From Candidatus Methanomethylicaceae archaeon (GTDB taxonomy: Archaea; Thermoproteota; Methanomethylicia; Methanomethylicales; Methanomethylicaceae): DNA of 40,721 nucleotides. The stretch's first letter is position 1. Every line of letters begins with the position of its first letter. Below are positions 1,323 to 38,916 of this stretch, one piece after another. A program made the position numbers and the translations under genes. The notes under the pieces were generated by a model, which was given only the letters and a program-made list of their open reading frames with translations, did not search any database and was not told the origin of the DNA. Location: the NCBI GenBank assembly GCA_015660995.1, contig JACTUC010000026.1, forward strand, positions 1 to 40,721, written 5' to 3'.

Positions 1323-1390
1323 TTGATATTAGACCGCGGGGATTTGAACGCGCGAACAGTGGAGGCAAAATATCACTATTCCCTTTTTTG
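1323..1390 (+). repeat. tRNA-3'-like dispersed repeat, copy 1 (degenerate)
   Basis: TTGAT at 1323-1327 is followed by ACCGCGGGGATTTGAACG, then GCGAACAGTGGAGG and a T-run (CCCTTTTTTG). The central GATTTGAAC is the reverse complement of a standard tRNA T-loop. The second stem is poorly kept. It lies in the divergent space between the SnoaL-like and DUF1508 genes. This is the most diverged of the 12 copies. Confidence 0.6.
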
Positions 1391-3307: not shown

Positions 3308-3370
3308 AGTGGATCGGGTGGATTTGCACCCGCGAACGGCGAAGATAAAGGTTCAGTAATCTGCCTTTTG
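3308..3370 (+). repeat. tRNA-3'-like dispersed repeat, copy 2
   Basis: AGTGGATCGGGTGGATTTGC is followed by ACCCGCGAACGG and a second stem-loop in which GGC/GCC and AGAT/ATCT pair around a small bulge, closing on AGGTTCAG. The downstream T-run is short (CTTTTGG). The copy lies in the 450-base space between two minus-strand genes. Apart from it and the small frame 3353-3436, I see nothing else in 3157-3553. Confidence 0.65.
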
Positions 3371-5012: not shown

Positions 5013-5106
5013 AAATCGCTCTGTTTCGTGCATACTTGATGGTCGACCGGGCGGGATTTGCATCCCTGACTAGTGGAGGTGGCACCCGCGATATATTGGT
5101 TTTTTT
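5013..5106 (+). repeat. tRNA-3'-like dispersed repeat, copy 3
   Basis: The upstream module CTGTTTCGTGCATACTTGAT (5021-5040) leads into GGTCGACCGGGCGGGATTTG. The second half is altered (CATCCCTGACTAGTGGAGG, GCACCCGCG) and ends in a seven-T run. It lies between the divergent MBL and GYD genes. The 5' module is shared with the orphan at 1676-1745. Confidence 0.65.
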
Positions 5107-5973: not shown

Positions 5974-6040
5974 TTGCGGGATTTGAACCCGCGAACGGTG
6001 GAGATAAAGGTTCGGTAATCTCCCCCTTTTCCTTTTATTT
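5974..6040 (+). repeat. tRNA-3'-like dispersed repeat, copy 4
   Basis: GCGGGATTTGAACCCGC is a perfect 5-base stem with a 7-base loop, the exact reverse complement of a canonical tRNA T arm. After CGAACGGT comes a second stem, GGAGAT pairing with ATCTCC around AAAGGTTCGGTA, then CCCCTTTTCC and more T. TTGAT and the acceptor half are missing on the left. It lies between two minus-strand genes. Confidence 0.75.
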
Positions 6041-6125: not shown

Positions 6126-7325
6126 TCACCGCGTCATTGTCTTTCTGAACACTGGCACCGCAATGGCTATCATAACCGCGCCGAACACTATCAGTATTAT
6201 CAGATCATTGGCTATGGCTGGTACCCCTGCCCCCAGCACCATGACCCTTCTGAGGGCATCCGACGCATAGGTGAGTGGCAGTACCTTTGAGATATCCTGC
6301 ATGTACCACGGCATCAGCTGTATGGGGAAGAACACGCCACTGAGGAACATCATGGGGAACATTAATGTCATCATCATCATCATGGCAGTCTCCTGGTCTT
6401 TTGCGAACGACGTTATCACAACACCCAAACCCACAAAGCTGAACACGCCTAGCAGAAGCAGCCCCAATACTAGAAGGATATTTCCTTGTATGCTGACGCC
6501 AAACAGGCCCACGGCCAGCGCCATGATTATGAGGCCCTGAAGAAGCCCCCTAGCAGTCTGGCCTAGGGTTTTACCAAGTATGATGGAAAGCCTGTTGATT
6601 GGCGCAACCATCATTCCGTCCATGGTGCCAATCTCCTTCTCCATTGAAATTGCTGCTGGTAGCCCGGTCATGACGCTCATCATTACAGTCATTGCCAATA
6701 TGCCAGGAGCTACGAAATCAAAGTAGTTGGAATTGCCGGCGACAACGCCCTCTGTCTGGACTTTGTAGGGTTGCACAATCGCCAGGGAGTTGCTCCCGTT
6801 GATCGCTGGGTTCAGCATCTGGACATGCAGCTGGGCCAGCATTGTTCCCATTTGATTAAATATGCTGGTCAGAACTGATTGTATGGCAGTTGAAATTTGT
6901 GGGTTGGATTGATCAGTCATAATGATTATGGTCGCCTGCTGACCACTCATGACACACGCACTGAAATTGCTTGGTATTATTATGCCGCCATCCAAATCCC
7001 CTCTTTGGATCATGTCCTTCAGATCATTAACGTTGGATACATTGGACAGTACCATCAGGCCTGTCTGGCTGTTGATCTGCTGCACACCCATGACAAAGGC
7101 TTGACTTGCCACGGTGTAATTGCCATAGCCCGAGTCTTCATTCACAAGTGCGATGGGCAAGTTGCTCACGGTTGTGCCGCTGGACGGATAGATAAAGCCG
7201 ACCATGAGCATCATAAACAGCGGCATCACGATAAGCATGACCAGCCCCAGCCTGTTCCGGGACAACTCATGGAGGTCCTTCTGGGCGATCCTCATACTAT
7301 GTGAAAACAGAGATTTTGCGCCCAT
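6126..7325 (-). CDS. ABC-2 type exporter permease
   Basis: The 399 residues have the ABC-2 layout: a cytoplasmic N terminus, one membrane helix (about 27-48), a large external domain (about 50-205), then five hydrophobic segments up to the end. Runs of methionine (AMMMMMMTLMFPMMF) mark one of them. It partners the ATPase encoded just upstream; the ATPase stop and this ATG are six bases apart. Such pairs export drugs, lipids or polysaccharide precursors. The substrate cannot be inferred. A daunorubicin-resistance-like or DUF-type lipid exporter would look the same. Confidence 0.88.
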   Translation of the reverse strand: MGAKSLFSHSMRIAQKDLHELSRNRLGLVMLIVMPLFMMLMVGFIYPSSGTTVSNLPIALVNEDSGYGNYTVASQAFVMGVQQINSQTGLMVLSNVSNVNDLKDMIQRGDLDGGIIIPSNFSACVMSGQQATIIIMTDQSNPQISTAIQSVLTSIFNQMGTMLAQLHVQMLNPAINGSNSLAIVQPYKVQTEGVVAGNSNYFDFVAPGILAMTVMMSVMTGLPAAISMEKEIGTMDGMMVAPINRLSIILGKTLGQTARGLLQGLIIMALAVGLFGVSIQGNILLVLGLLLLGVFSFVGLGVVITSFAKDQETAMMMMMTLMFPMMFLSGVFFPIQLMPWYMQDISKVLPLTYASDALRRVMVLGAGVPAIANDLIILIVFGAVMIAIAVPVFRKTMTR

Positions 7326-13579: not shown

Positions 13580-13647
13580 GCGACCGGGAAGTTGCACCCG
13601 CGAACAGTGGAGATAGAGGTTCCGTAGTCTTCACATCCCTTTTTTTC
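13580..13647 (+). repeat. tRNA-3'-like dispersed repeat, copy 5
   Basis: CGACCGGGAAGTTGCACCCG is followed by CGAACA and a second stem, GTGGAGA pairing with TCTTCAC (one G-T pair), around TAGAGGTTCCGTAG, then TCCC and seven T. It starts about 10 bases after the clpB stop and could end that transcript, but the same element occurs elsewhere away from gene ends. Confidence 0.7.
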
Positions 13648-21777: not shown

Positions 21778-21838
21778 GTCTAGGCAGCCTTACCCTTAAA
21801 TTACGACTTTATCAAATACCATAAATCAAGCGATAGTT

Positions 21839-22048
21839 ATGGACCAAAAAATAAGGGAGATCTCCGCAATTGCCGCGTCAGTGGCCGCGCACTGTCAACC
21901 TTGCCTGAAGTTCCACTAGGGGAAGGTGAAAGAGCTTGGGGTACCTAGGGAAGACATTATCCAGATAATCGAACTGGCTTTGAAAATCAGCGATAAGGGC
22001 GATGAATATATGTCCAAATTTTCTGATGAAGTCTTGCAAGAAAAATGA
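21839..22048 (+). pseudogene. carboxymuconolactone decarboxylase-like gene with in-frame TAG
   Basis: The frame would give 69 residues. It aligns over its whole length, without gaps, with the intact gene at 33088-33297, plus about 50 bases of upstream promoter and a few downstream. Codon 27 is TAG (21917-21919) where the intact copy has TAT for Tyr, just after the C-x2-C-x3-H redox motif (CQPCLKFH). Roughly half of the other differences are silent, so the copy was under selection before or despite the TAG. It is either a young pseudogene or read through. No pyrrolysine genes are in this window. Confidence 0.85.
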
Positions 22049-22091
22049 ACGAACGATTCGTGGAAATAATAACTATCCTTTCTTATGCGAA

Positions 22092-22182
22092 TTGATGGTG
22101 GACCGGGGGGATTTGAACCCAAATGAGGGTGGAACCCACAGCTGATGGAGGTAAAACCTCAATCTCCATTCATATCTTTTTT
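22092..22182 (+). repeat. tRNA-3'-like dispersed repeat, copy 6
   Basis: TTGATGGTGGACCGGGGGG is followed by ATTTGAACCC, an extra unpaired insert (AAATGAGGGTGGAACCCACA) and a second stem, ATGGAG with CTCCAT, that differs from other copies by a compensating G-C to A-T change. Inside it GAGGT-AAA-ACCTC forms another hairpin. A short T-run ends it. The copy overlaps the 3' end of the FMN protein gene by 13 bases and lies between convergent genes. Confidence 0.7.
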
Positions 22183-22736
22183 CCAATTGAGAACGCTTGT
22201 CCTGTGCGTTTCCCAACTTTATGATATGTCATCCCTGCCATATTCCAGATAATCGGTTTCACTTTTTCAATGTCTGGAAGGCCCTTTTCATTAAGCATAG
22301 AAGAATCAGCCTTGACATCCACGATTTCACCTATGAACTCTGTATGTAGCCCAATTTTGACTATCTTAATAACCTTGCACTCTATAATGAGAGGAAATTC
22401 TTTCACATAGGGTGCGTCAACAAGATCGCTTTTCACGGGAGTAAGCCCTGTTGCTGAGAATTTATCCACCGTTTTCCCCGAAGCGATGCCAAGATAATCA
22501 GCCTCCTTGGTATAGGTTTCGGATGGAATACTCACCGTAAACGATTTCCGTTCCATAATATTACCATAGGTATGCGTAGCTTTTCTTAGAGATACATAGA
22601 TACATGGCGGTTGGGAGCAACAAACTCCTCCCCAAGCAGCAGTCATAACATTTGGCTTTCCCTCTCTATCATAAGTTCCCACAACCCAGACAGGTGTCGT
22701 GGGAACGATAGTCATTGCACCCAAAGATTTTTTCAT
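22170..22736 (-). CDS. flavin reductase-like FMN-binding protein of the arsenic operon
   Basis: The 188-residue split-barrel FMN protein starts [20 protein letters not shown], followed by [23 protein letters not shown] and [26 protein letters not shown]. The CC in GVCCSQPP is a feature of a large flavoredoxin-like subgroup in anaerobes. It is the last gene of the arsenic operon, 21 bases after arsM. It might supply low-potential electrons, for example to the corrinoid or to an arsenic species; that is inference. ATG 22736 is preceded by AAGAAGG; a TTG at 22754 is an unlikely alternative. Confidence 0.88.
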
Positions 22737-22757
22737 AAGAAACCTTCTTAACAATTT

Positions 22758-23579
22758 TTACTTAATACCACTGAGTTTAATGCTCACTACTTTTTTCGCA
22801 TAATTCCTTACCTGCTCTCTGGAAATTTTGTATTTCCTTATCGCAGACTTTACTTTGGGATCACTGATTAGAGAACCAATGGGATATACAGACTCGCTAA
22901 CTGTTGATATATCCTTGAAACCCGCTTTTTTTATGGTGCCAATGTAGTCATCCTTTAGCATTGCCCCAGCGACACAACCTGTTAATGCCTCGACTGAATT
23001 CTTAAGGAAGTCAGGCAACTTCTCTAACAGCACAATATCGGAAATCATCACTCGCCCACCATCTCGAAGTACCCTATGGGCTTCATTGAAAACTCTTTCC
23101 TTGTCTGGGGAGAGATTGATAACACAGTTGGAGATTATTATATCCACTGAATTATCTGCCACTGGAAGATTTTCTATTTCCCCCAGCCTAAACTCTACAT
23201 TTTTGAACTTCCCCTTTTTCGCATTTGCTCGTGCTTTCTCCAGCATCTCAGGAGTCATATCGACGCCTATTACCTTCCCGTGCTCGCCGACTCTCTTTGC
23301 AGCCAAAAAAGCGTCAAACCCTCCACCAGAGCCTAAATCCAAAACCACTTCTCCTTCTTTCAGGGAAGCAAGGGCAACTGGATTTCCACATCCGAGTCCC
23401 ATGTTAGCCCCCTTTGGGATTGAGCTTAATTCCTCTTCAGTATAGCCAATTTTCTTGCTCTTAGCCTCTGGCGTATCTCCGCATTCACAGGTACTTTGCA
23501 CTCCGCAACAGGAACTCTCTTCTTTCGCAATTTTTGAATATTTCTTACGAACAATTTTCCTTAAATTTTCATCTTTCAT
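22758..23579 (-). CDS. arsM: ArsM arsenite methyltransferase
   Basis: The 273-residue product has SAM motif I VVLDLGSGGGFDAFLAA. The three cysteines needed for As(III) binding and catalysis are present: Cys64 (GLGCGNP), Cys152 (SNCVINLSPD) and Cys202 (TGCVAGAM). The N terminus adds a Cys-rich ESSCCGVQSTCECGD, which may hold extra arsenic. ArsM turns arsenite into methylated, partly volatile arsenicals in the cytoplasm. The ATG at 23579 has GGAG seven bases before it; the GTG at 23588 in the same frame is less likely. It lies between the pump gene and the FMN protein gene in a tight operon. Confidence 0.95.
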   Translation of the reverse strand: MKDENLRKIVRKKYSKIAKEESSCCGVQSTCECGDTPEAKSKKIGYTEEELSSIPKGANMGLGCGNPVALASLKEGEVVLDLGSGGGFDAFLAAKRVGEHGKVIGVDMTPEMLEKARANAKKGKFKNVEFRLGEIENLPVADNSVDIIISNCVINLSPDKERVFNEAHRVLRDGGRVMISDIVLLEKLPDFLKNSVEALTGCVAGAMLKDDYIGTIKKAGFKDISTVSESVYPIGSLISDPKVKSAIRKYKISREQVRNYAKKVVSIKLSGIK

Positions 23580-23609
23580 TTTGAACACTCCATTATTTTA
23601 TTCCAATCA

Positions 23610-24683
23610 TCACTCATTTTCCATTTTTATTCCATTCTTGAAATATTTCTTTCCCAGCCAGAATGCCACATTGACTAGACTTATCATCACAGGTACTTCT
23701 ATCAAAGGCCCGATCACCGCTGCAAATGCTTCCAAAGAGGCTATGCCGAATATGGCAACTGCAACCGCTATAGCGAGCTCAAAGTTGTTGCTGGCAGCTG
23801 TAAACGACAAAGTTGTTGTCCTCTCGTATCCCAGTTTTGACTTATAACCTATGAAGAATGATGCGAAGAACATTATTACGAAGTATATCAGCAGAGGCAC
23901 AGCAATCAACACAACATCGAAGGGCCTTGTAACAATATACCCCCCTTTCAGTGCGAACATGACAACGATTGTAAATAAAAGGGCAAGGAGAGAAGTCGGT
24001 CCCAACTTGGGCATCAGCACCTTATCGTACCATTCCCGTCCTTTCGTCCTCAAGAAATAGTATCGGGTAATGATCCCTGCGAAGAAAGGTATCCCTAGGT
24101 ATATCAGAACAGATTGGGCAATTTCACCAAGCGAGATTTGGACAACCATCCCTGATACGCCAGTTATCCAAGAGCTGACGATTGTTATGTAGAAGTAGGC
24201 AAGAACCGAGTAGAATATTATCTGAAAGACAGAGTTGAATGCCACCAATATTGCAGCCCATTCGCTGTCTCCTTTAGCTAGGCTGTTCCAAACAATAACC
24301 ATTGCAATGCATCTTGCAAGACCAACGAGTATTATGCCGTTCCTATATTCAGGATAGTTAGCCAAGAAAACCCAAGCAAGGATAAACATCAGTGACGGTC
24401 CAACAACCCAGTTTAAGACAATGGATTCGCCTAGGATAGTTTTCGAACCAGGAGCACGCACTATCTTACGCAAATCCTCGTACCTAACTTTTGCAAGCGG
24501 GGGGTACATCATCCAAATAAGGCCTATTGCAATCGGTATTGAGGTCGTGCCAATACTGATCGAACTGATTGTATTGGAAATACTGGGGAAGAAATAACCA
24601 AGACCCACCCCGACAACCATTGCCAAGAAAATCCATAGGGTCAAAAATTTTGTAAGGAAGGAGAGTCTCGTTTTCTCGCTCAT
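23610..24683 (-). CDS. ACR3-family arsenite efflux permease
   Basis: The 357-residue product has about ten membrane helices. It holds the family sequence [16 protein letters not shown], the functional Cys125 in [15 protein letters not shown], and [21 protein letters not shown] near the end. ACR3 expels As(OH)3 driven by the membrane potential. The start lies 19 bases after the corrinoid gene's stop, and arsM begins about 30 bases after this gene, so all belong to one transcript. The family is often called ArsB in old annotations; this is ACR3 (BASS-like), not true ArsB. Confidence 0.95.
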
Positions 24684-24702
24684 TGCATTCGTCCCATAAC
24701 AG

Positions 24703-25326
24703 CTATTCTGAATGCCCGAGAATTGAGCTTCTAAGCTTGCTAAGATCGTTAATTATCAGATCAGCACCGCTTTTGCCTGCTAATGGTCCGCCTGCTATTA
24801 TCTTGACGTCCTTTCTCTGTTCTCCCACCCCCTCAACAAAAGCACGCAACTTGGCCTCAGTCGGAGGTTCGATGCAGGAAAGCACAACAAACTTAAGCTT
24901 CGGGTCCGAAAGGGCTTCGGACACATCATCTATTCGTACACCCCTCCTTGAGGTGTAAACCTTCAATCCCTTTGCTCTGAGCATGGTTTTAATGATGTCC
25001 CTCATGAGGATGTGCCCCTCGCCGAGCACGGTTACGACCAATACAGAAAAAGGCGAATCCTTCGGAGAGCCTATCTTCGATTCTAATAACTGCAGGATCT
25101 TCTGAGTTGCGTTGAAGCAATCGAGCCATGCCTTCAGTGATTCCTTGGGATCCTTATCATACCAAACACTGAACTCAGACCATGCTTTCAGAATGCCATT
25201 CGTTACGATCTCATCAATGCTCATGCCCGAATCAAGAGCTTTGTTTGCAGCTTCGACAGATGCGATCCCGTTTCCGGATAGTATTGATTTTGAAATATGC
25301 TCAAACACATCATTATGGTTGGACAT
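24703..25326 (-). CDS. corrinoid (B12-binding) protein, first gene of the arsenic operon
   Basis: The 207-residue product has an N-terminal helical cap like PF02607 (about 1-85, [23 protein letters not shown]) and a C-terminal B12-binding Rossmann domain (about 90-200, [20 protein letters not shown]). The cobalt-ligand motif D-x-H-x-x-G reads E-G-H-I-L-M, so His is kept while Asp and Gly are replaced. Such proteins carry methyl groups on cobalamin between methyltransferases. ATG 25326 follows GGGG; an ATG at 25377 lies inside the operator. Its place ahead of acr3 and arsM links a corrinoid to arsenic handling. A PAS- or photoreceptor-like B12 sensor role is possible. Confidence 0.8.
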
Positions 25327-25374
25327 TTTACCCCGCCAGTGACCCTGATGCTTAATTTTCATCTGTCTGGGCAT

Positions 25375-25406
25375 CATATCGCTAAATTGCGATATGGCTA
25401 TAAAAG
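25375..25406 (-). promoter_or_regulatory. ArsR-type operator and promoter of the arsenic operon
   Basis: CATATCGC-TAAATT-GCGATATG (25375-25396) is a perfect 8-base inverted repeat. It lies just downstream of a minus-strand TATA box CTTTTATAG (25398-25406), over the expected transcript start. Placement and symmetry fit binding by an ArsR dimer that leaves when arsenite is bound. Confidence 0.65.
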
Positions 25407-25420
25407 TTTTTTGCTCAAAA

Positions 25421-25453
25421 GATATAATTGGCTCTAAGGGATTTAATTATATC
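25421..25453 (+). promoter_or_regulatory. second operator-like inverted repeat, arsR promoter
   Basis: GATATAATT-15 bases-AATTATATC is a perfect 9-base inverted repeat. Its right arm overlaps the TATA-like TTTAATTATATC about 25-35 bases before the arsR ATG. It is probably the site for self-repression of arsR. The half-site sequence GATATxxTT resembles the other operator's GCGATATG only partly. Confidence 0.5.
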
Positions 25454-25476
25454 AAAAGTTAATCGTTGGAAGGAAA

Positions 25477-25809
25477 ATGTCTGAGATTCATAAAGGCAAT
25501 GAGAATAGAGCAAAAATATTGAAAGCGATTGCAGATCCAGTAAGATTACAGATAATCGAATATCTTAAAGAAGAAGAACAGTGTGTCTGTAAAATTATCC
25601 CAGCAGTAGGTAAAAAACAATCTACTGTATCAAAACATCTGAACATACTTTACGATAGTGGCATTCTGGACAGGCGGATAGATAGTAAATGGACTTATTA
25701 TCGTATAAAAAATCCTAAAATTTTCATTTTGCTCCAAGAACTTGATAGAATAGCTTTGGATAACGCTTCTGATTTAATGGACGCGGTAAAAAAGAAAAAT
25801 AATCGATAA
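25477..25809 (+). CDS. arsR: ArsR-family arsenic-responsive repressor
   Basis: The 110-residue winged-helix protein has IADPVRLQIIEYLKEEEQCVCKIIPAVGKKQSTVSKHLNILYDSGIL. The CVC pair in helix 3 matches the ELCVC arsenite site of ArsR/SmtB repressors, and QSTVSKHL is the recognition helix. The wing is DRRIDSKWTYYRIK. It is divergent from the corrinoid-acr3-arsM-FMN operon, with two inverted repeats in between. It probably represses both directions and is released by As(III). The gene is A+T-rich with Lys-rich coding. Confidence 0.93.
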   Translation: MSEIHKGNENRAKILKAIADPVRLQIIEYLKEEEQCVCKIIPAVGKKQSTVSKHLNILYDSGILDRRIDSKWTYYRIKNPKIFILLQELDRIALDNASDLMDAVKKKNNR

Positions 25810-25831: not shown

Positions 25832-25903
25832 AGAGCGGGATTTGCACCCGCGAATGAGTGGAGGTAGTGGTTCGGGCAATCTCCACCTTTTACTTTTTTT
25901 TTG
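25832..25903 (+). repeat. tRNA-3'-like dispersed repeat, copy 7
   Basis: GAGCGGGATTTGCACCCGCG is followed by AATGA and the stem GTGGAG with CTCCAC around GTAGTGGTTCGGGCAAT, then CTTTTAC and nine T. The left acceptor part and TTGAT are missing. It sits between the convergent arsR and 25943-26305 genes. The tail GGTCAAATTTTACTCC follows, then CCCCCCAAAC. Confidence 0.78.
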
Positions 25904-25942
25904 AGGGTCAAATTTTACTCCTCCCCCCAAACTATCAAAGCA

Positions 25943-26305
25943 CTAATAGGTTTCGTCCTCAAACCTGCAAGGCTTCATATCCAACTGTTTTATAGGAATT
26001 TTCAATGACAAACCGTAATCAATGACAGGTTTCCAGCTTGATTTTTCAGGAGATATGCGAAAAATCCTGTCCTTGAATATCACTACTAATTCATCGTCTC
26101 TATAGAAATGTGCATAATATTTTTCTTTAATCACAAGATTTTCTTGAATTAGCTTGATCATTTTCCCCAATTCTTCTGCAGGAAAAGAAATCTTGAGCAA
26201 CACCAATCCTGTGGAGGATCTCCTGCTTCCTATGACATTTAACTTTTCTATTAGCTTTTTATTTCTCAAACTTTTATCAATAATTATGCCATGATATTCA
26301 GTCAT
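25943..26305 (-). CDS. uncharacterised archaeal protein
   Basis: The 120-residue product starts MTEYHGIIIDKSLRNKKLIEKL and has the central segment YYAHFYRDDELVVIFKDRIFRI, then a Trp-bearing WKPVIDYGLSLKIPIKQLDMKP. The order recalls a small uncharacterised archaeal family with YAHFYRD and G-IP-xQLDF motifs, but I cannot name it. No membrane segment is present. It reads as a compact alpha+beta domain. It is convergent with arsR, with repeat copy 7 between. Confidence 0.6.
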   Translation of the reverse strand: MTEYHGIIIDKSLRNKKLIEKLNVIGSRRSSTGLVLLKISFPAEELGKMIKLIQENLVIKEKYYAHFYRDDELVVIFKDRIFRISPEKSSWKPVIDYGLSLKIPIKQLDMKPCRFEDETY

Positions 26306-26529
26306 TCAATCACTGCCGCGTGCCAAGATTGTAATGCCGTTCTTGATGTGTTGTGATGTACTTATGGGTTTTGGGGGGTATGTGGGGATCAAATTTTAAC
26401 TTTTTTTTTGGGCTTCACAGAATCATGCATTGAGGAATAAGACTGAACTGTAGGATTGAGGTTTGAAAGAACTCCCGTATTGAATGGCAGGCAGATTTAA
26501 TTACAGGTCTATTTTTTTAACTAAGATTC

Positions 26530-27087
26530 ATGGAGCTTGATGAGTGTATAAAAAGTAGAAGGAGCGTAAGAGCGTACAAGGATGAGCCTGTCCCGCGAGA
26601 AAAAATTGAATCAATACTTGAAGCTGGAGTTTGGGCAGCCACGGGGATGGGTAAACAACCATGGCGTTTCATAATTATTGAGGACAAGAGCATCATAAAG
26701 TTCGTCTCAGATGAAACGAAAAAGACAGTCATCAAAGCGATGCCCGCATTCGCGAAGCGTTTTGAAACAGAGCAGGACATTATCTGCTACAATGCCCCCG
26801 TCCTAATTTTCATATGCTCCGAGGTTGATCCTAATTTTAGTAAACTCTACCTTGAGGATTGCGTGCTTGCAGCCCAAAACATGTTTTTGAAAGCACATGA
26901 ACTGGGACTCGGGGCCTGCTATATGGGGTGGATCGATGTATTGAATAGGATTAATCCTGAAAGCATAAAAAAAGCAGGTGTTCCGGAAGGCTATGAGATG
27001 AAAGTACCCCTTATCCTCGGCTATCCCAAGAGCCAGCAGGGGCTGGGGAAAAGAAGCGCGCCAGTAATACTGAAATGGATTAAGTAG
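26530..27087 (+). CDS. nitroreductase-family FMN protein
   Basis: The 185-residue product starts MELDECIKSRRSVRAYKDEPVP, the Arg/Ser FMN-phosphate site of nitroreductases, with AATGMGKQPWRFIIIE next and LEDCVLAAQNMFLKAHELGLGACYMGWID and LGYPKS near the end. These dimeric enzymes reduce nitro groups, flavins or enones with NAD(P)H. The real substrate is unknown. A TATA-like GATTTAATTAC about 30 bases before the ATG suggests leaderless mRNA. A T9 terminator follows the gene closely. Confidence 0.92.
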   Translation: MELDECIKSRRSVRAYKDEPVPREKIESILEAGVWAATGMGKQPWRFIIIEDKSIIKFVSDETKKTVIKAMPAFAKRFETEQDIICYNAPVLIFICSEVDPNFSKLYLEDCVLAAQNMFLKAHELGLGACYMGWIDVLNRINPESIKKAGVPEGYEMKVPLILGYPKSQQGLGKRSAPVILKWIK

Positions 27088-27090
27088 GTT

Positions 27091-27125
27091 AATTTTTTTT
27101 TGTTAAAATTTAACCCCCAAACCCA
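27091..27125 (+). terminator. T-run plus tail module after the nitroreductase gene
   Basis: Nine T in AATTTTTTTTTG are followed by GTTAAAATTTAAC (6-base palindrome arms) and CCCCCAAACCCA. The same tail follows repeat copies 8 and 11 and occurs alone at 30276-30296. The T-run probably ends the nitroreductase transcript. Confidence 0.5.
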
Positions 27126-27210
27126 GCTATGCCCTTTTCACTATTACTCTCAGTATGTGCTCAGCCCACGCCTTGCTTGGCTGACAATAAATGCTATGAT
27201 AAAGCGAATC

Positions 27211-27282
27211 TTAAAGTGCTTTCTTATTTTTTCTTTTTTGATTCTTCAGCATTTTGATTTTCTTCTTTTGACTTCTTGCCAT
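27211..27282 (-). CDS. possible 23-residue basic peptide
   Basis: A 24-codon frame (MARSQKKKIKMLKNQKRKNK and three more residues) has a perfect ribosome site, GAGGTGA, six bases before the ATG. A second overlapping frame from ATG 27301 (MSEVSKNGKKSKEENQNAEE, then Lys) shares the region. Both are Lys-rich and could be chance in A-rich DNA, but the ribosome site and position at the end of the small-gene cluster argue for one of them. Confidence 0.3.
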   Translation of the reverse strand: MARSQKKKIKMLKNQKRKNKKAL

Positions 27283-27306
27283 TTTTACTCACCTCAGACA
27301 TAATTC

Positions 27307-27453
27307 CTACGCTAATTTTCTTCCACACCAAGGGCAGTAATGAATTATCCTATTAAACAATGAGAATCTTCTAAGACCGCCTCTCATTTCAATGACAATC
27401 TCACGTCTTATCAATGCCGTATTAAGTCTATCACAACACTCCATTTTTATCAT
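27307..27453 (-). CDS. 48-residue zinc-ribbon-like protein
   Basis: The frame MIKMECCDRLNTALIRREIV continues to HYCPWCGRKLA and TAG. The end C-P-W-C-G is a zinc-knuckle half; the N-terminal ECCD supplies the other Cys pair. Its ATG directly abuts the TAG of the gene at 27454, with GAGG just before, so translation is coupled. This layout resembles small treble-clef or zinc-ribbon proteins found in viruses and mobile elements. It has no recognised family. Confidence 0.6.
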   Translation of the reverse strand: MIKMECCDRLNTALIRREIVIEMRGGLRRFSLFNRIIHYCPWCGRKLA

Positions 27454-27774
27454 CTATTCCTCTTTCTCATCCTTAATCAGCATGTAAATCTTCTTCTCAA
27501 CTAGTTCTTTTAGTAACAACGCACTCATTTCCGTGGCTGTGATCTCCCAGAGGCTATAGATCTTCGATTCTGGGTCTTTTGATAACTTGTTGAATATCTG
27601 CCACTTGAACATCTCCCAAGCTTGGTTGGAGTTGTCAGCGATCACCAGATACTGTGCGTATTTCTCTGTTTCAACTTTTGAGGCTATTCGGAAGAACTTT
27701 TTCTTCTCTTCTTCTTTTCTGTCTTGCTTCTCCATTTCCAATTTATTTTTATCCAAACTTGACACTCTTACCAT
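27454..27774 (-). CDS. uncharacterised 106-residue protein of the small-gene cluster
   Basis: The product has a charged helical start (about 10-27, Lys/Glu-rich, KQDRKEEEKKKFF) and a folded-looking middle (KYAQYLVIADNSNQAWEMFKWQIFN). The end is SLWEITATEMSALLLKELVE. The middle looks like a small alpha+beta domain. No family is recognised. GGGGAG precedes the ATG but nearly touches it, so a GTG four codons in may be the real start. It lies directly before the 48-residue zinc-ribbon gene and is probably in the same mRNA. Confidence 0.55.
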   Translation of the reverse strand: MVRVSSLDKNKLEMEKQDRKEEEKKKFFRIASKVETEKYAQYLVIADNSNQAWEMFKWQIFNKLSKDPESKIYSLWEITATEMSALLLKELVEKKIYMLIKDEKEE

Positions 27775-27783
27775 CTCCCCATT

Positions 27784-27950
27784 CTACACTTCTCCAATCA
27801 GAGAATTTCGATTCCTTCTGGTTTCTCTTGTGGACTTTTCTCTTCTTCCGCTGAAAAGACACTCAGCTTTTAGCCTTGATACGCTTAATTCTGCTGCCAG
27901 CCCACCGAGAAATATGTTCACATCAACATACGGATTGTAAAGTCCAAACC
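27784..27950 (-). other. open frame without clear start, possible decayed gene
   Basis: In one minus-strand frame a protein-like stretch runs from about 28060 to a TAG near 27784 without stops. It includes GFGLYNPYVDVNIFLGGLAA and ELSVSRLKAECLFSGRREKS. It overlaps the gene at 27951-28046 in another frame and has only a GTG as possible start. A frameshift that split one gene into this and the preceding small frame is a simple explanation. Confidence 0.35.
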
Positions 27951-28046
27951 CTAATGGCTCGCCACTCCCATAATGGGTCGAAAGGGAATATAGACTTTGT
28001 CTATTGCTGCTTCTAGTTGCTTCCGTTGGGCATAATCCATATTCAT
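27951..28046 (-). CDS. 31-residue protein, third of a coupled micro-gene chain
   Basis: The frame reads MNMDYAQRKQLEAAIDKVYI and 11 more residues. Its ATG overlaps the TGA of the gene before it as ATGA. The segment M-x-Y-x-x-Q-x-K-x-LEAAIDK is also found in the first gene of the chain (28195-28266), so the two ends of the chain are related, probably by duplication. It may be truncated by frameshift, since a second protein-like frame continues downstream. Confidence 0.5.
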   Translation of the reverse strand: MNMDYAQRKQLEAAIDKVYIPFRPIMGVASH

Positions 28047-28198
28047 CCCAACTTCTTTTCTCGCTTTATTGGGCACTCACTTTCCCACTCGTCACTATTT
28101 TCATTGGTTATGGAAAAGTGTGCATCACAATCTTCGTTGGCACATTCGTAGCACGTATAACCTTGGTCTTCTATAGCATGCCAGTTATGTTTGGTCAT
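28043..28198 (-). CDS. 51-residue Cys-rich (zinc-finger-like) protein
   Basis: The frame starts MTKHNWHAIEDQGYTCYECA and continues NEDCDAHFSITNENSDEW to ECPIKREKKLG. The spacing C-x2-C-x4-C and a later C, with His nearby, suggests a small zinc-binding domain. Both ends overlap neighbours by ATGA (28195-28198 and 28043-28046), a tight coupling typical of compact viral or plasmid gene strings. No family is recognised. The codons are not consistent with a chance frame because both borders match exactly. Confidence 0.6.
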   Translation of the reverse strand: MTKHNWHAIEDQGYTCYECANEDCDAHFSITNENSDEWESECPIKREKKLG

Positions 28199-28266
28199 GG
28201 TAATTTCTCCAGTCCTTTACCTTTGTCAATCGCTGCTTCTAGTTTCTTCTGCTCTTCGTACTCCAT
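28195..28266 (-). CDS. 23-residue protein, first of a coupled micro-gene chain
   Basis: The frame MEYEEQKKLEAAIDKGKGLE plus KLP ends at a TGA that overlaps the next ATG. In-frame GTG codons just upstream would add five or six residues. It shares the Y-x-x-Q-K-x-LEAAIDK motif with the third gene of the chain. A short amphipathic helix is likely. Alone it would be dismissed, but the coupling and the paralogue make it credible. Confidence 0.45.
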   Translation of the reverse strand: MEYEEQKKLEAAIDKGKGLEKLP

Positions 28267-28307
28267 TCCAATTCGCACCACAAATTTTTCTTCTCACGGC
28301 TGAACTA

Positions 28308-28880
28308 CTACTCAGGTTCCCTCGATCTCTCTTTTTGGAATTCCTTCCTTACTATTTCTTTTACACCACCATTGTCTGCCTCTAGCCTAAATAAGATGAC
28401 ATCTTTATTGTTCTGGGCATCTTTGTCATTTGGATCGATACTCAAGACCTTTTCAAAACACTCTAGGGCTTTTTTATAACTCGAATCTCCTAGATTACCT
28501 AATGCGAGACCTTTGTTGTACCATGCATCTTTATCGTTAGGATCAATCTTTAAGACCTCGTTGAAGAACTTCACTGCCTCTTGATAGAACTTCAGCTTGA
28601 TAGAAATATCGCCTTTGTTGAACCAAGCTCCCTTATGGTGCGGATCGATCTTTAGGACCTCATTATAGTAATTAATGGCTTCTCCATAGAATTCATTTTC
28701 TTGATAAGCAACACCTTTGTTGAACAGAGCTTTTTTATTCCCTTCTTTAAACCTTGGAGCCAAAGGTCCAACTCTTTCGGGTCTTCTTCGACTCATTTTG
28801 TTCCCACAGTGAGGACATATGATGGGATTACTTCTTGGGTTTGGCTCAAACTCTTTCGAACAGCGGGAGCATCTGAACAT
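28308..28880 (-). CDS. zinc-ribbon and TPR-repeat protein
   Basis: The 190-residue product has an N-terminal zinc ribbon (MFRCSRCSKEFEPN, IICPHCGNKM; four Cys). Three tetratricopeptide repeats follow (about 48-150), each of the form A-x-x-NKG-x-A...A-x-x-x-Y-NEVLKIDP, with a charged tail (VRKEFQKERSREPE). The repeats are nearly identical, suggesting recent expansion. TPR arrays hold partner proteins; the ribbon may bind nucleic acid or protein. A TATA box 25 bases before the ATG implies leaderless mRNA. It may head the small-gene string downstream. Confidence 0.85.
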   Translation of the reverse strand: MFRCSRCSKEFEPNPRSNPIICPHCGNKMSRRRPERVGPLAPRFKEGNKKALFNKGVAYQENEFYGEAINYYNEVLKIDPHHKGAWFNKGDISIKLKFYQEAVKFFNEVLKIDPNDKDAWYNKGLALGNLGDSSYKKALECFEKVLSIDPNDKDAQNNKDVILFRLEADNGGVKEIVRKEFQKERSREPE

Positions 28881-28897
28881 ACGTCAAGCCCTTTCCG

Positions 28898-28916
28898 CTT
28901 ATTATATATGAGTTTC
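28898..28916 (-). promoter_or_regulatory. TATA box of the TPR gene
   Basis: On the minus strand CATATATAATAAGC is centred about 25 bases before the ATG at 28880, which fits leaderless transcription. Confidence 0.55.
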
Positions 28917-29228
28917 TCCTTTATCAGAGTGTTAACCTTGCCGATGCGATGAAAATGAATAGCATAGTGTCTCTTGCCTGAAACTAAATCCCTCTGACTC
29001 GACCCTTTTTTTAACATCAATTTAATGATCCCGAAGCGAAAATTAGGCGAAAGTGACAGATACTCCTAAAGGCGATCGTTGTGGAACATCCCAAAACCAT
29101 CATTTACGGCGAGCTTTATTCGGGTCAAAGGAAGAAGAGGCGAACGAGGCCTAGAATTAAGCAACATCCTGATCAGCTGTTGCTCCTTAATTAGGATAAC
29201 CTCCTGTGAGACACAGCCGAGCTAGTAG
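28917..29228. other. spacer without recognised gene
   Basis: The 5' side of repeat copy 8. A + strand frame from about 29052 to TAG 29190 reads through a basic stretch (YGELYSGQRKKRRTRPRIKQ) that might be a gene relic, but it has no start codon or ribosome site. Nothing else is seen. Confidence 0.3.
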
Positions 29229-29330
29229 CGGCGGGTGGGATTTGAACCCGCGAATGAGTGGAGGTAGTGGTTCGGGCAATCTCCACCCTTTCCTTTTTTT
29301 AAGGGTTAAAAATTAACCCCCCCCCAGATT
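29229..29330 (+). repeat. tRNA-3'-like dispersed repeat, copy 8, with tail
   Basis: CGGCGGGTGGGATTTGAACC is followed by CGCGAATGA and the stem GTGGAG/CTCCAC around GTAGTGGTTCGGGCAAT, then CCTTTCC and seven T. The tail is GGGTTAAAAATTAACCCC, itself a palindrome, then a C-run. TTGAT and the CCA part are absent. From GGGATTTG to the T-run it is nearly identical to copies 7 and 9. Confidence 0.8.
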
Positions 29331-32079: not shown

Positions 32080-32124
32080 CATTCATTATTTTACAATTCT
32101 ATGTTAGCAGATTTGTTTTGATAA

Positions 32125-32279
32125 GGGCAAAGACATGGCCCAGAAGACCTTTATCGTATAGTTGACTACCATGGAAAATGGCTATTTTCGCGTATGTTTG
32201 ATGGTGGACCGGGTGGGATTTGCGCCCGCGAATGAGTGGAGGTAGTGGTTCGGGCAATCTCCACATCTTACTTTTTTTC
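32125..32279 (+). repeat. tRNA-3'-like dispersed repeat, copy 9, full unit
   Basis: In order: GGGCAAAGACATGGCC (32125-32140), a TATA-like CCTTTATCG, TATAGTTGACTA (32157-32168), hairpin GAAAAT-GGCT-ATTTTC (32174-32189), TTGAT (32198-32202), then GGTGGACCGGGTGGGATTTG. GGGTG pairs with CGCCC by one G-T pair. The second stem GTGGAG/CTCCAC encloses GTAGTGGTTCGGGCAAT, and seven T follow. This is one of two complete units; copy 11 is the other. It lies between convergent genes. Confidence 0.85.
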
Positions 32280-32974: not shown

Positions 32975-33087
32975 GATATGCCGAATCCGATTAAAAAATC
33001 ATATGCCAACAATCGGAGTGAAAACCTTCTATGCGACCTTATCTTTAAATTATGACTTTATCAAATACTGTAAATCAAGCGATAGTT

Positions 33088-33297
33088 ATGGACCAAAAAA
33101 CAAGGGAGATCTCCGCAATTGCCGCGTCAGTAGCCGCGCACTGTCAACCTTGCCTGAAGTTTCACTATGGGAAGGCGAAAGAGCTGGGGATACCTCAGGA
33201 AGACATAGTCCAGATAATCGAGCTGGCTTTGAAAATCAGTGATAAGGGCGATGAGTATATGTCCAAATTTGCTGATGAAGTCTTGCTGGAAAAATGA
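33088..33297 (+). CDS. carboxymuconolactone decarboxylase-like (AhpD-type) small protein, intact copy
   Basis: The 69-residue product has the redox motif C19-x2-C22-x3-H26 (CQPCLKFH) within AAHCQPCLKFHYGKAKELGI and a second helix VQIIELALKI. It is a single AhpD-like unit, probably a hexamer of helical subunits that carries out thiol-based peroxidase or redox work. A TATA-like CTTTAAATTATG at 33039-33050 places the transcript start after ATG 33052, so I use ATG 33088. A near-identical copy with a TAG lies at 21839-22048. The duplicate includes the promoter. Confidence 0.88.
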   Translation: MDQKTREISAIAASVAAHCQPCLKFHYGKAKELGIPQEDIVQIIELALKISDKGDEYMSKFADEVLLEK

Positions 33298-33452
33298 ACC
33301 AACGACTCGCGGAAATAACACAAGCTGCCCTTTTTCTCCCAAGAAAAACTTTTTGTGTCATAGAGTCTATCCAACGGATTTCCAAGATGATTGTCAATGA
33401 GATACTATGCGAATTGGGTGTAATTATTTTGTAAATGGCCTTTCCAGAATTG

Positions 33453-34281: not shown

Positions 34282-34416
34282 ACTTTTATGTTGTAGATGT
34301 CTGAAAAACGATGGCTATTTGGCAGATACTTGATGGTGGACCGGGTGGGATTTGCACCCGCGAATGAGTGGAGGTAATGGTTCGGGCAGAAAATCTCCAC
34401 CTTTCTCCTTTTTTTC
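34282..34416 (+). repeat. tRNA-3'-like dispersed repeat, copy 10, with promoter-like 5' module
   Basis: The 5' module ATACTTTTATGTTGTAGATG (34282-34301) plus TCTGAAAAA leads to ATGGCTATTTGG, TTGAT (34330-34334) and GGTGGACCGGGTGGGATTTG, with perfect GGGTG/CACCC pairing. The second stem GTGGAG/CTCCAC encloses GTAATGGTTCGGGCAGAAAAT, then CTTTCTCC and seven T. It lies between the divergent DUF2284 and lipocalin genes. The rest of that 380-base spacer holds only the lipocalin promoter. Confidence 0.85.
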
Positions 34417-36056: not shown

Positions 36057-36238
36057 GGGCAAAGACATGGCCAAAGACCTTTGTCGTGTAGTTGACTACC
36101 ATTGAAAATGGCTATTTTCGTGTATTTTTGATGGTGGACCGGGTGGGATTTGCGCCCGCGAATGAGTGGAGGTAGTGGTTCGGGCAGAAAATCTCCACCT
36201 TTCTCCTTTTTTTAAGAGTTAAAATTTAACCCCCCACA
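36057..36238 (+). repeat. tRNA-3'-like dispersed repeat, copy 11, full unit with tail
   Basis: Same order as copy 9: GGGCAAAGACATGGCC, CCTTTGTCG, then palindrome GTAGTTGACTAC (36089-36100; both flanking bases changed together relative to copy 9), hairpin GAAAAT-GGCT-ATTTTC (36104-36119), TTGAT (36128-36132), acceptor and T-arm-like part, stem GTGGAG/CTCCAC and seven T. The tail GAGTTAAAATTTAACCCC and CCACACAC ends it. It lies in the 477-base divergent spacer before tbp; 35930-36010 there is very A+T-rich (ATATTTAAATATAATTGAG). Confidence 0.85.
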
Positions 36239-36359: not shown

Positions 36360-36905
36360 TTGCCTTCCCATAAGATTGAAAATGTGGTCGCTTCAGTCAC
36401 TATGAACCAGAGAATAGATCTGAACACAATATCCGGGAATGTTCCTGGGGTGGAGTACAACCCCGAACAGTTCCCTGGCTTGGTTTACAGGATCTCAAAG
36501 CCCCGCACTGCAACCCTGATCTTCTCATCGGGCAAGATGGTATGCACGGGCGCGAAGTCTGAGAAGGAGGTTCACAACGCTGTCAAGAAGATAATCAAGA
36601 ACCTCAAGGACAGGAATATCGTGATCATTGGGGCTCCCGAGATTACGATACAGAACATTGTGGCTTCTGCCAACCTCAATGCGGAGGTGAACCTTGAGAA
36701 GGCTGCGTTCCTCCTCGAGAATGTCATGTATGAGCCGGAGCAATTCCCTGGGCTCATATACAGGATGGCCGACCCCAAGGTGGTGCTGCTGATCTTCTCA
36801 TCGGGCAAGATGGTATGCACGGGCGCAAAGCATGAGGACGAGGTAAAAATAGCAGTTGAAAAAATATATCAGAAGCTGAAGGATCTGGGCGTCCTCTACG
36901 AGTAA
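36360..36905 (+). CDS. tbp: TATA-box-binding protein
   Basis: The 181-residue product has two TBP repeats, each with a PEQFPGL-x-YR turn and an [13 protein letters not shown] segment: [16 protein letters not shown] to NLKDR and [16 protein letters not shown] to KLKDLG. They form the saddle that binds TATA DNA and recruits TFB for archaeal RNA polymerase. There is no acidic C-terminal tail. The start is TTG with GGAG before it. It proves the archaeal origin of the window. Confidence 0.98.
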
Positions 36906-38787: not shown

Positions 38788-38916
38788 ATGCGTTGCAAAT
38801 GTCCAAAAAATCCATCAGCTTTGCATATTTTTGATGGTGGACCGGGTGGGATTTGCACCCGCACATGCGTGGAGGTAATGGTTCGGGCAGAAAATCTCCA
38901 CGCTTTTCTTTTTTTA
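38788..38916 (+). repeat. tRNA-3'-like dispersed repeat, copy 12
   Basis: A diverged 5' module (AATCCTTATGCGTTGCAAATG at 38787, shortened here) leads to TTGAT (38831-38835) and GGTGGACCGGGTGGGATTTG with GGGTG/CACCC pairing. The second stem is longer, GCGTGGAG with CTCCACGC: where other copies have an A-C mismatch, this copy has a C-G pair, so the helix is extended. It ends in seven T. It lies between two minus-strand genes. Confidence 0.85.

Follow-up and report, generated by a model that had tools for sequence, protein, structure and literature searches.

The described systems closest to the locus reported here are integron cassette arrays and elements inserted at tRNA genes. Integron arrays, including the archaeal CALINs, place direct-oriented structured sites between small gene segments, as does the array described below; CALIN sites are also highly similar within a genome, and most such arrays, again like ours, have no adjoining integrase (PMC9668308). 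Islands inserted at tRNA genes by a tyrosine integrase share with our locus a displaced tRNA 3' fragment, a regenerated intact tRNA and a hotspot on the 3' side of the gene (Islander, PMC4383910; PMC8371274). Site-specific integration at tRNA genes is conventionally recognised by a regenerated tRNA accompanied by a displaced 3' fragment (PMC4383910). The consulted part of the work on tycheposons presents bacterial elements of 4-200 kb from Prochlorococcus and Methylophilaceae that have a tyrosine recombinase; they resemble our cassettes in being cargo-carrying elements tied to tRNA genes, and their cargo is adaptive (PMC10872708). According to the consulted part of PMC6563490, the cryptic integrated elements of Thaumarchaea are archaeal, as here, and often lie at tRNA genes with direct repeats as att sites.

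The window analysed here is the whole of a 40.7 kb contig (C23) from a metagenome-assembled genome of 1.63 Mb, the source genome (G000); C14, C8, C9, C1 and C25 are other contigs of that genome. We propose, with a probability of about 0.74 for the explanation as a whole, that mostly integrase-less gene cassettes were inserted serially and site-specifically downstream of tRNA genes, giving an integron-like layout with a different attachment site. A string of micro-frames in the window would then be cargo in one of about a dozen cassettes collected downstream of a tRNA gene.

Micro-frames and the cassette that holds them

A preliminary description of positions 27211-28266 drew attention to very short reading frames joined by ATGA overlaps and suggested the remnant of an integrated element, on the ground that such compact strings are typical of viruses or plasmids. 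All of these frames are found by sequence and ORF check on the minus strand, inside what we call cassette 7:

25891-29233, no strand: cassette 7, between sites S7 and S8; 120-aa frame, nitroreductase, micro-frames and zinc-ribbon/TPR protein (Pfam)
26530-27087, plus strand: nitroreductase (PF00881, E 1.4e-31)
27201-27360, minus strand: 160-bp block with the Lys-rich frame and the end of the zinc-ribbon frame, 90% identical to C14:41010-41172
27211-27282, minus strand: Lys-rich frame, 23 codons, preceded by GAGGTGA
27307-27453, minus strand: 48-codon frame ending in a CPWCGRKLA zinc-ribbon tail; its last ~15 residues recur on contig C14
27454-27774, minus strand: 106-codon frame, gene-like codon usage, no homologue, possible GTG start at codon 4
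27951-28046, minus strand: 31-codon frame (MDYAQRKQLEAAIDK..), holding a 46-bp duplicate of the 23-codon frame
28043-28198, minus strand: 51-codon frame with C-x2-C-x4-C, no relative in 100 related genomes and viral contigs
28195-28266, minus strand: 23-codon frame (MEYEEQKKLEAAIDK..), no homologue seen
28308-28880, minus strand: zinc-ribbon and tetratricopeptide-repeat protein, 190 aa (Pfam TPR, E 8e-25)

The details read from the letters hold up: the ATGA overlaps of the 23-, 51- and 31-codon frames lie at 28195-28198 and 28043-28046, the cysteine motif is present in the 51-residue frame, the 106-codon frame directly adjoins the 48-codon zinc-ribbon frame, and GAGGTGA stands upstream of the Lys-rich frame. 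The motif Y-x-x-Q-x-K-x-LEAAIDK is indeed common to the 23- and 31-codon frames, and it originates in a 46-bp DNA duplication (27995-28040 and 28221-28266, 78% identical). The 10 differences between the duplicates are split 2/2/6 over codon positions 1, 2 and 3, a hint of coding history. By codon usage, the 106-residue and 23-codon frames are gene-like, the 51- and 31-codon frames intermediate, and the 48-residue frame not gene-like. The ATGA chaining itself, counted over frames of at least 20 codons, is at chance level and nothing unusual, because the window has 2 triple chains against a mean of 0.78 in dinucleotide shuffles, 52% of which contain at least one. Since the overlaps occur at chance frequency, they say nothing for a virus here, and their use as a viral sign falls away.

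The preliminary description would give the frames up if no relative conserved them and no peptides or ribosome footprints turned up, and it proposed a comparison with viral and plasmid proteins. The first of these two grounds now holds in part. Relatives of the 106- and 51-residue frames are absent both from 100 related genomes and from viral contigs, and the 106-residue frame has no match in GTDB contigs (one genome per species); among the frames tested against relatives, GTDB contigs and viral contigs, no homologue was seen outside the source genome. With the 106-residue frame, a phage search gave nothing convincing, and a plasmid DNA search returned zero matches. A PHROG search with the micro-frames found nothing beyond the short CPWCG zinc-ribbon tail of the 48-residue frame, with several weak matches. 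The predicted fold of the 106-residue frame is of low confidence and uninterpretable (pLDDT 59, pTM 0.28).

The Lys-rich frame and the zinc-ribbon tail recur once in the genome, in degraded form, in a second island on C14. This partner of the 160-bp block lies within a tRNA-Phe cassette, and its frames are partly broken there: differences in the Lys-rich block fall 0/4/4 over the codon positions, as expected without coding constraint, and one overlapping frame is interrupted. Because this 90% identical block with broken frames lies in the tRNA-Phe cassette, the 160-bp stretch has either passed from one cassette to another or been duplicated, and in at least one of them it is decaying. As part of the overall explanation given above, the micro-frames would thus be partly decaying cargo of one cassette in a tRNA-linked array. 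What remains of the proposed element remnant is its integration, given the att-like repeats on both sides and the tRNA-linked array, and not its viral or plasmid nature. The direct repeat flanking the region, missed in the earlier reading, is a much stronger signal than the ATGA chain.

Repeated sites ending in tRNA sequence

A profile search of the window finds 12 copies of a direct repeat of ~55-85 bp, which divides the contig into cassettes:

1336-1390, minus strand: S1, att-like, degenerate (profile and covariance model R2)
3316-3370, minus strand: S2, att-like (R2, 58.6 bits)
5035-5104, minus strand: S3, att-like, degenerate, tRNA-Ala-like end; arm resembles the tRNA-Phe 3' flank (profile, arm match)
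5975-6029, minus strand: S4, att-like (R2, 73.2 bits)
13584-13638, minus strand: S5, att-like (R2, 48.4 bits)
22092-22173, minus strand: S6, att-like, degenerate, with insertion (profile)
25834-25890, minus strand: S7, att-like, hairpin and T-arm, left border of cassette 7 (R2, 72.1 bits; direct repeat D2)
29234-29290, minus strand: S8, att-like, hairpin, T-arm and acceptor-like end, right border of cassette 7 (R2, 70.8 bits; direct repeat D2)
32212-32268, minus strand: S9, att-like, tRNA-Ala 3' end at 32198-32229 (R2, 67.4 bits)
34344-34404, minus strand: S10, att-like, tRNA-Ala 3' end (R2, 66.1 bits)
36142-36202, minus strand: S11, att-like, tRNA-Ala 3' end (R2, 63.8 bits)
38845-38905, minus strand: S12, att-like, tRNA-Ala 3' end (R2, 57.7 bits)

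All 12 copies are on one strand (P 0.0005), and all are intergenic except for one 4-bp overlap, though the DNA is 75% coding. Their spacing ranges from 0.9 to 8.5 kb, with 9 of 11 spacings between 0.94 and 3.74 kb; S7 and S8, which flank the micro-frames, are 3,400 bp apart. A degenerate pattern of the site matches the window 7 times and its shuffles 0 times. The window carries 12 of the 15 full-length copies in the genome, the others being one on C8 and two on C14, and a very degenerate extra copy lies on C9. Viral contigs searched for the repeat contain zero copies. In Rfam, no family reaches its gathering score on the window, and a relaxed search gives only a T-arm-sized match to tmRNA.

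On the minus strand, each site reads as an A-run, a GGAGAA-like spacer, the hairpin GTGGAGAT..ATCTCCAC (GGAGAT..ATCTCC on the tRNA strand), a short spacer, a tRNA T-arm and then, in most copies, the acceptor strand to CCA; on the plus strand, a T-run follows the hairpin. The ends of S9-S12 match tRNA-Ala 3' ends, and S4 and S7 have no recognisable acceptor or CCA end. After the CCA comes an arm starting ATCAANNATNCGC. At S9, S10 and the C8 site, the arms match the 3' flank of the intact tRNA-Ala(TGC) gene on C14 (z 12.5, 13.7 and 7.9); at S3, the arm matches that of the intact tRNA-Phe gene (z 13.2). The arms are therefore cassette DNA, because the flanks of different tRNA genes match them, whereas those of 12 other tRNA genes do not (z 3.0 or less). 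At several att-like sites (29303, 36216, C14:40973), the T-run is followed by the palindrome GGGTTAAAWTTTAACCCCC, which occurs also at 27100 near the micro-frames and is possibly a further cassette end signal.

On C14, the tRNA-Ala(TGC) gene lies 3.5 kb away from the contig end. Because its 3' flank matches the arms of S9 and S10, the array on C23 probably lies downstream of this gene, near the C14 end, the two being separate contigs of a metagenome-assembled genome. The right end of C23 would face tRNA-Ala(TGC); it has the best-kept tRNA-Ala ends, and the degenerate sites are mostly on the left.

The cargo of the cassettes comes in discrete functional sets, such as arsenic methylation and export, corrinoid methyltransferases, an ABC transporter or a lipocalin. 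Within the window, the cassettes encode a C1-type peptidase, a beta-CASP nuclease, an ABC exporter, ClpB, a GH1 glycosidase, a nitroreductase, a lipocalin and a TATA-binding protein, among others. The cassette between S6 and S7 is filled by a compact arsenic-type set (22170-25809), comprising an arsenite-methyltransferase-like protein, an SBF-family exporter, a B12-binding protein and, by our own reading, an ArsR-like regulator. Another contains a complete TATA-binding protein gene (36360-36905) adjoining a PQQ-repeat protein. A 291-bp segment is present in two cassettes (21779-22069 and 33028-33318, 90% identical), and both copies read on the plus strand as a small frame that by eye is AhpD-like (carboxymuconolactone decarboxylase-like). 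PADLOC reports for the window only a weak nucleotidyltransferase match, in cassette 8.

Displaced tRNA ends are seen directly on C14. Exactly the last 32 bases of an intact tRNA-Phe gene (c42424-42500) recur twice downstream of it, at 40899-40930 (97% identical) and 32109-32140 (100% identical); both copies are on the same strand, on the 3' side of the gene, 1.5 and 10.3 kb away, and each is joined to the hairpin and T-run. The segment between them carries a corrinoid-methyltransferase gene set by our own reading of the translations. Two Bathyarchaeia-class genomes have the same layout: in G367 (contig C32), tRNA-Phe is at 945-1021 and the site at 6987-7041; in G181 (contig C39), tRNA-Phe is at c5878-5953 and the site at 1384-1437, with a broken tyrosine-integrase gene beside the tRNA. 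Thus in three genomes a displaced 3' fragment lies downstream of its intact cognate tRNA gene.

Of the 9 relatives examined, 8 share the genes on the 5' side of tRNA-Phe with the source genome, and the contig of the ninth stops at the tRNA. Genes that lie on the 3' side in the source genome were found near tRNA-Phe in 0 of the 9, and no precise empty site or clean empty junction was found among them. A variant occurs in G437, where a single-gene cassette of ~1.1 kb stands between a tRNA-Pro 5' fragment and a hairpin with the tRNA-Pro 3' end (G437:C3:78953-80114, L221). This site is part of a split tRNA-Pro copy and lies upstream of an intact tRNA-Pro ~3 kb further on; because the cassette splits the copy, ARAGORN calls one tRNA-Pro with a 1 kb intron. 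For comparison, G003 has an ordinary integration scar, a 46-bp displaced tRNA-Phe 3' fragment 0.8 kb downstream of the intact gene and without a hairpin (G003:C10:3894-3939, L194).

In GTDB contigs, the degenerate pattern finds four archaeal records with the full architecture (Methanoperedens, two Bathyarchaeota and one Thermoproteota). Bacterial matches (L132-L135, L139) have no A-run, hairpin or tRNA context and were discarded as chance. Since nearly all matches of a first covariance model (R1) in a phylum search were ordinary tRNA T-arms, a new one was made from sites of five genomes. Run over 398 genomes of the phylum, it detects sites in 7, and no other genome of the source family reaches the threshold in that search. 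In the class to which G367 belongs, where some records are titled Bathyarchaeota, sites turn up in 20 of 257 genomes. A weak phylum match (L097), which looks like a piece of a real tRNA-like gene, was left out. In total, 39 sites were aligned from 22 archaeal genomes, the source genome included (at least 21 others). Pairing in the hairpin and T-arm holds in 85% of alignment cells, a figure inflated because the alignment was fitted to the structure. Both helices covary, with 32 double-change cells against 16.2 +/- 3.2 in shuffles (0/500), a result that leans upward for the same reason. The tRNA ends vary among sites (Phe, Ala, Pro and others), and the GGGAGATATCTCCA-like core hairpin is constant across genomes of different families plus Methanoperedens.

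Candidate mechanism and alternative readings

Each cassette would carry one attachment site, made of the A-run, the hairpin, a copy of the 3' end of the target tRNA and then the arm. On insertion of a circular cassette, the crossover would fall inside the tRNA 3' end, so that recombination restores the tRNA from cassette sequence and pushes the old 3' end to the far side. Because every insertion displaces the old end in this way, repeated rounds would yield the order tRNA, cassette, hairpin with tRNA end, cassette, hairpin with tRNA end, in one orientation; the oldest copies would accordingly lie furthest from the tRNA.

The recombinase is probably a tyrosine integrase acting in trans. No recombinase gene was found on C23, C14 or C8 (PF00589), and the source genome has three PF00589 genes. 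One of these, a tyrosine integrase on C1 (L058:5672-6729), was dropped as a candidate because its tRNA is tRNA-Ser-like and no repeat adjoins the gene. It overlaps the tRNA gene, which ARAGORN names tRNA-Ala(CGC) with an intron and which we read as an intron-containing tRNA-Ser-like gene; the locus looks like an ordinary integrated-element remnant. The sole integrase linked to sites is the broken gene in G181. The hairpin may be joined to different tRNA ends by structure-specific recognition, and such recognition by a shared recombinase would explain one hairpin on several tRNA 3' ends. That the whole amounts to a distinct archaeal integron-like gene-capture system, with tRNA genes as platform, a folded site read by structure and a shared trans-acting recombinase, is a tentative idea that we find doubtful as yet.

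Much of the layout could also arise by ordinary tandem accretion of separate elements or islands at tRNA genes, whose own tyrosine integrases have since been lost, the hairpin being an arm site or terminator of one integrase family. Archaea are known to show tandem integration and to lose integrases (PMC8371274), island ends are marked by displaced tRNA fragments (PMC4383910), and a broken integrase adjoins tRNA-Phe in G181; we take accretion as a credible alternative, short of probable. It sits poorly with a hairpin that stays constant while the target tRNA changes, across families and in Methanoperedens, and with segments of only 0.9-8.5 kb, many of one or two genes, that carry neither integrase nor replication gene. 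The repeat might instead be a dispersed RNA gene, a tRNA-derived (SINE-like) retroposon or a terminator. Its T-arm and hairpin do fold and covary, with a T-run after the hairpin on the plus strand, but a retroposon would scatter in both directions, whereas the copies in the window are clustered in one orientation. In three genomes, moreover, sites end in the 3' sequence of the tRNA gene immediately upstream of them, and a search of the window against Rfam gives no known RNA. We hold an RNA gene, a retroposon or a terminator to be distinctly unlikely.

For the micro-frames themselves, the third-position bias of the 46-bp duplicate and the gene-like codon usage of the 23-codon frame speak for a real co-translated micro-protein operon with a shared motif. 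We nonetheless judge the operon unlikely: the tested frames have no homologue in relatives, GTDB contigs or viral contigs, ATGA chains occur at chance level, and the neighbouring Lys-rich block shows no coding constraint in its C14 copy, where one overlapping frame is broken. Viruses commonly have small zinc-ribbon frames, and the 48-residue tail weakly matches several PHROGs, so the linked micro-genes could be viral small genes in a virus or plasmid remnant. With chaining at chance level, no viral, phage or plasmid relatives, no viral hallmark or plasmid replication genes, and metabolic or cellular genes in the neighbouring cassettes, this reading is already disfavoured and seems very unlikely. 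Serial cassette insertion downstream of tRNA genes is the explanation we prefer.

Relation to integrons and tRNA-linked islands

By the spacing rule for integrons and CALINs, at least two direct-oriented sites less than 4 kb apart, C23 qualifies, with its 12 sites and 9 of 11 spacings of 0.94-3.74 kb. Unlike integron sites, those of the C23 type contain a tRNA 3' end and, where visible, lie downstream of tRNA genes. No pair of the attC boxes R'' (GTTRRRY) and R' (RYYYAAC) occurs in the 12 sites with 60 bp flanks. Among the recombinases examined, none is of IntI type by the integron-integrase cut-off: the two full-length PF00589 genes, and the third over its matched stretch, either fall far short of the TIGR02249 cut-off or give no score. 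Integrons recombine through a folded single-stranded substrate; in the present sites, the hairpin covaries. In view of the missing attC boxes and the negative search for an integron integrase, we do not class the array as an integron.

Islands at tRNA genes are defined in part by an integrase encoded on the island, and none is encoded on C23, C14 or C8. Unlike such islands, the present array has many short integrase-less segments in series, and a conserved hairpin is joined to whichever tRNA end was the target. The consulted part of the tycheposon work (PMC10872708) does not describe a conserved T-arm and hairpin site, nor does that on the Thaumarchaeal elements (PMC6563490) describe an array of repeated structured sites; in the open-access literature searched, we found no description of an array of conserved T-arm and hairpin sites.

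How uncultured sediment archaea such as Bathyarchaeia take up genes is poorly explained. An attachment site that can be scored by a covariance model, here in 22 genomes, would allow captured cassettes with arsenic, demethylation, transport and stress genes to be mapped, and would also permit tests for excised circles in metagenomes and a hunt for the recombinase. If serial capture at tRNA genes is true, archaea gain a cassette-array mechanism that is parallel to integrons and built on tRNA ends.
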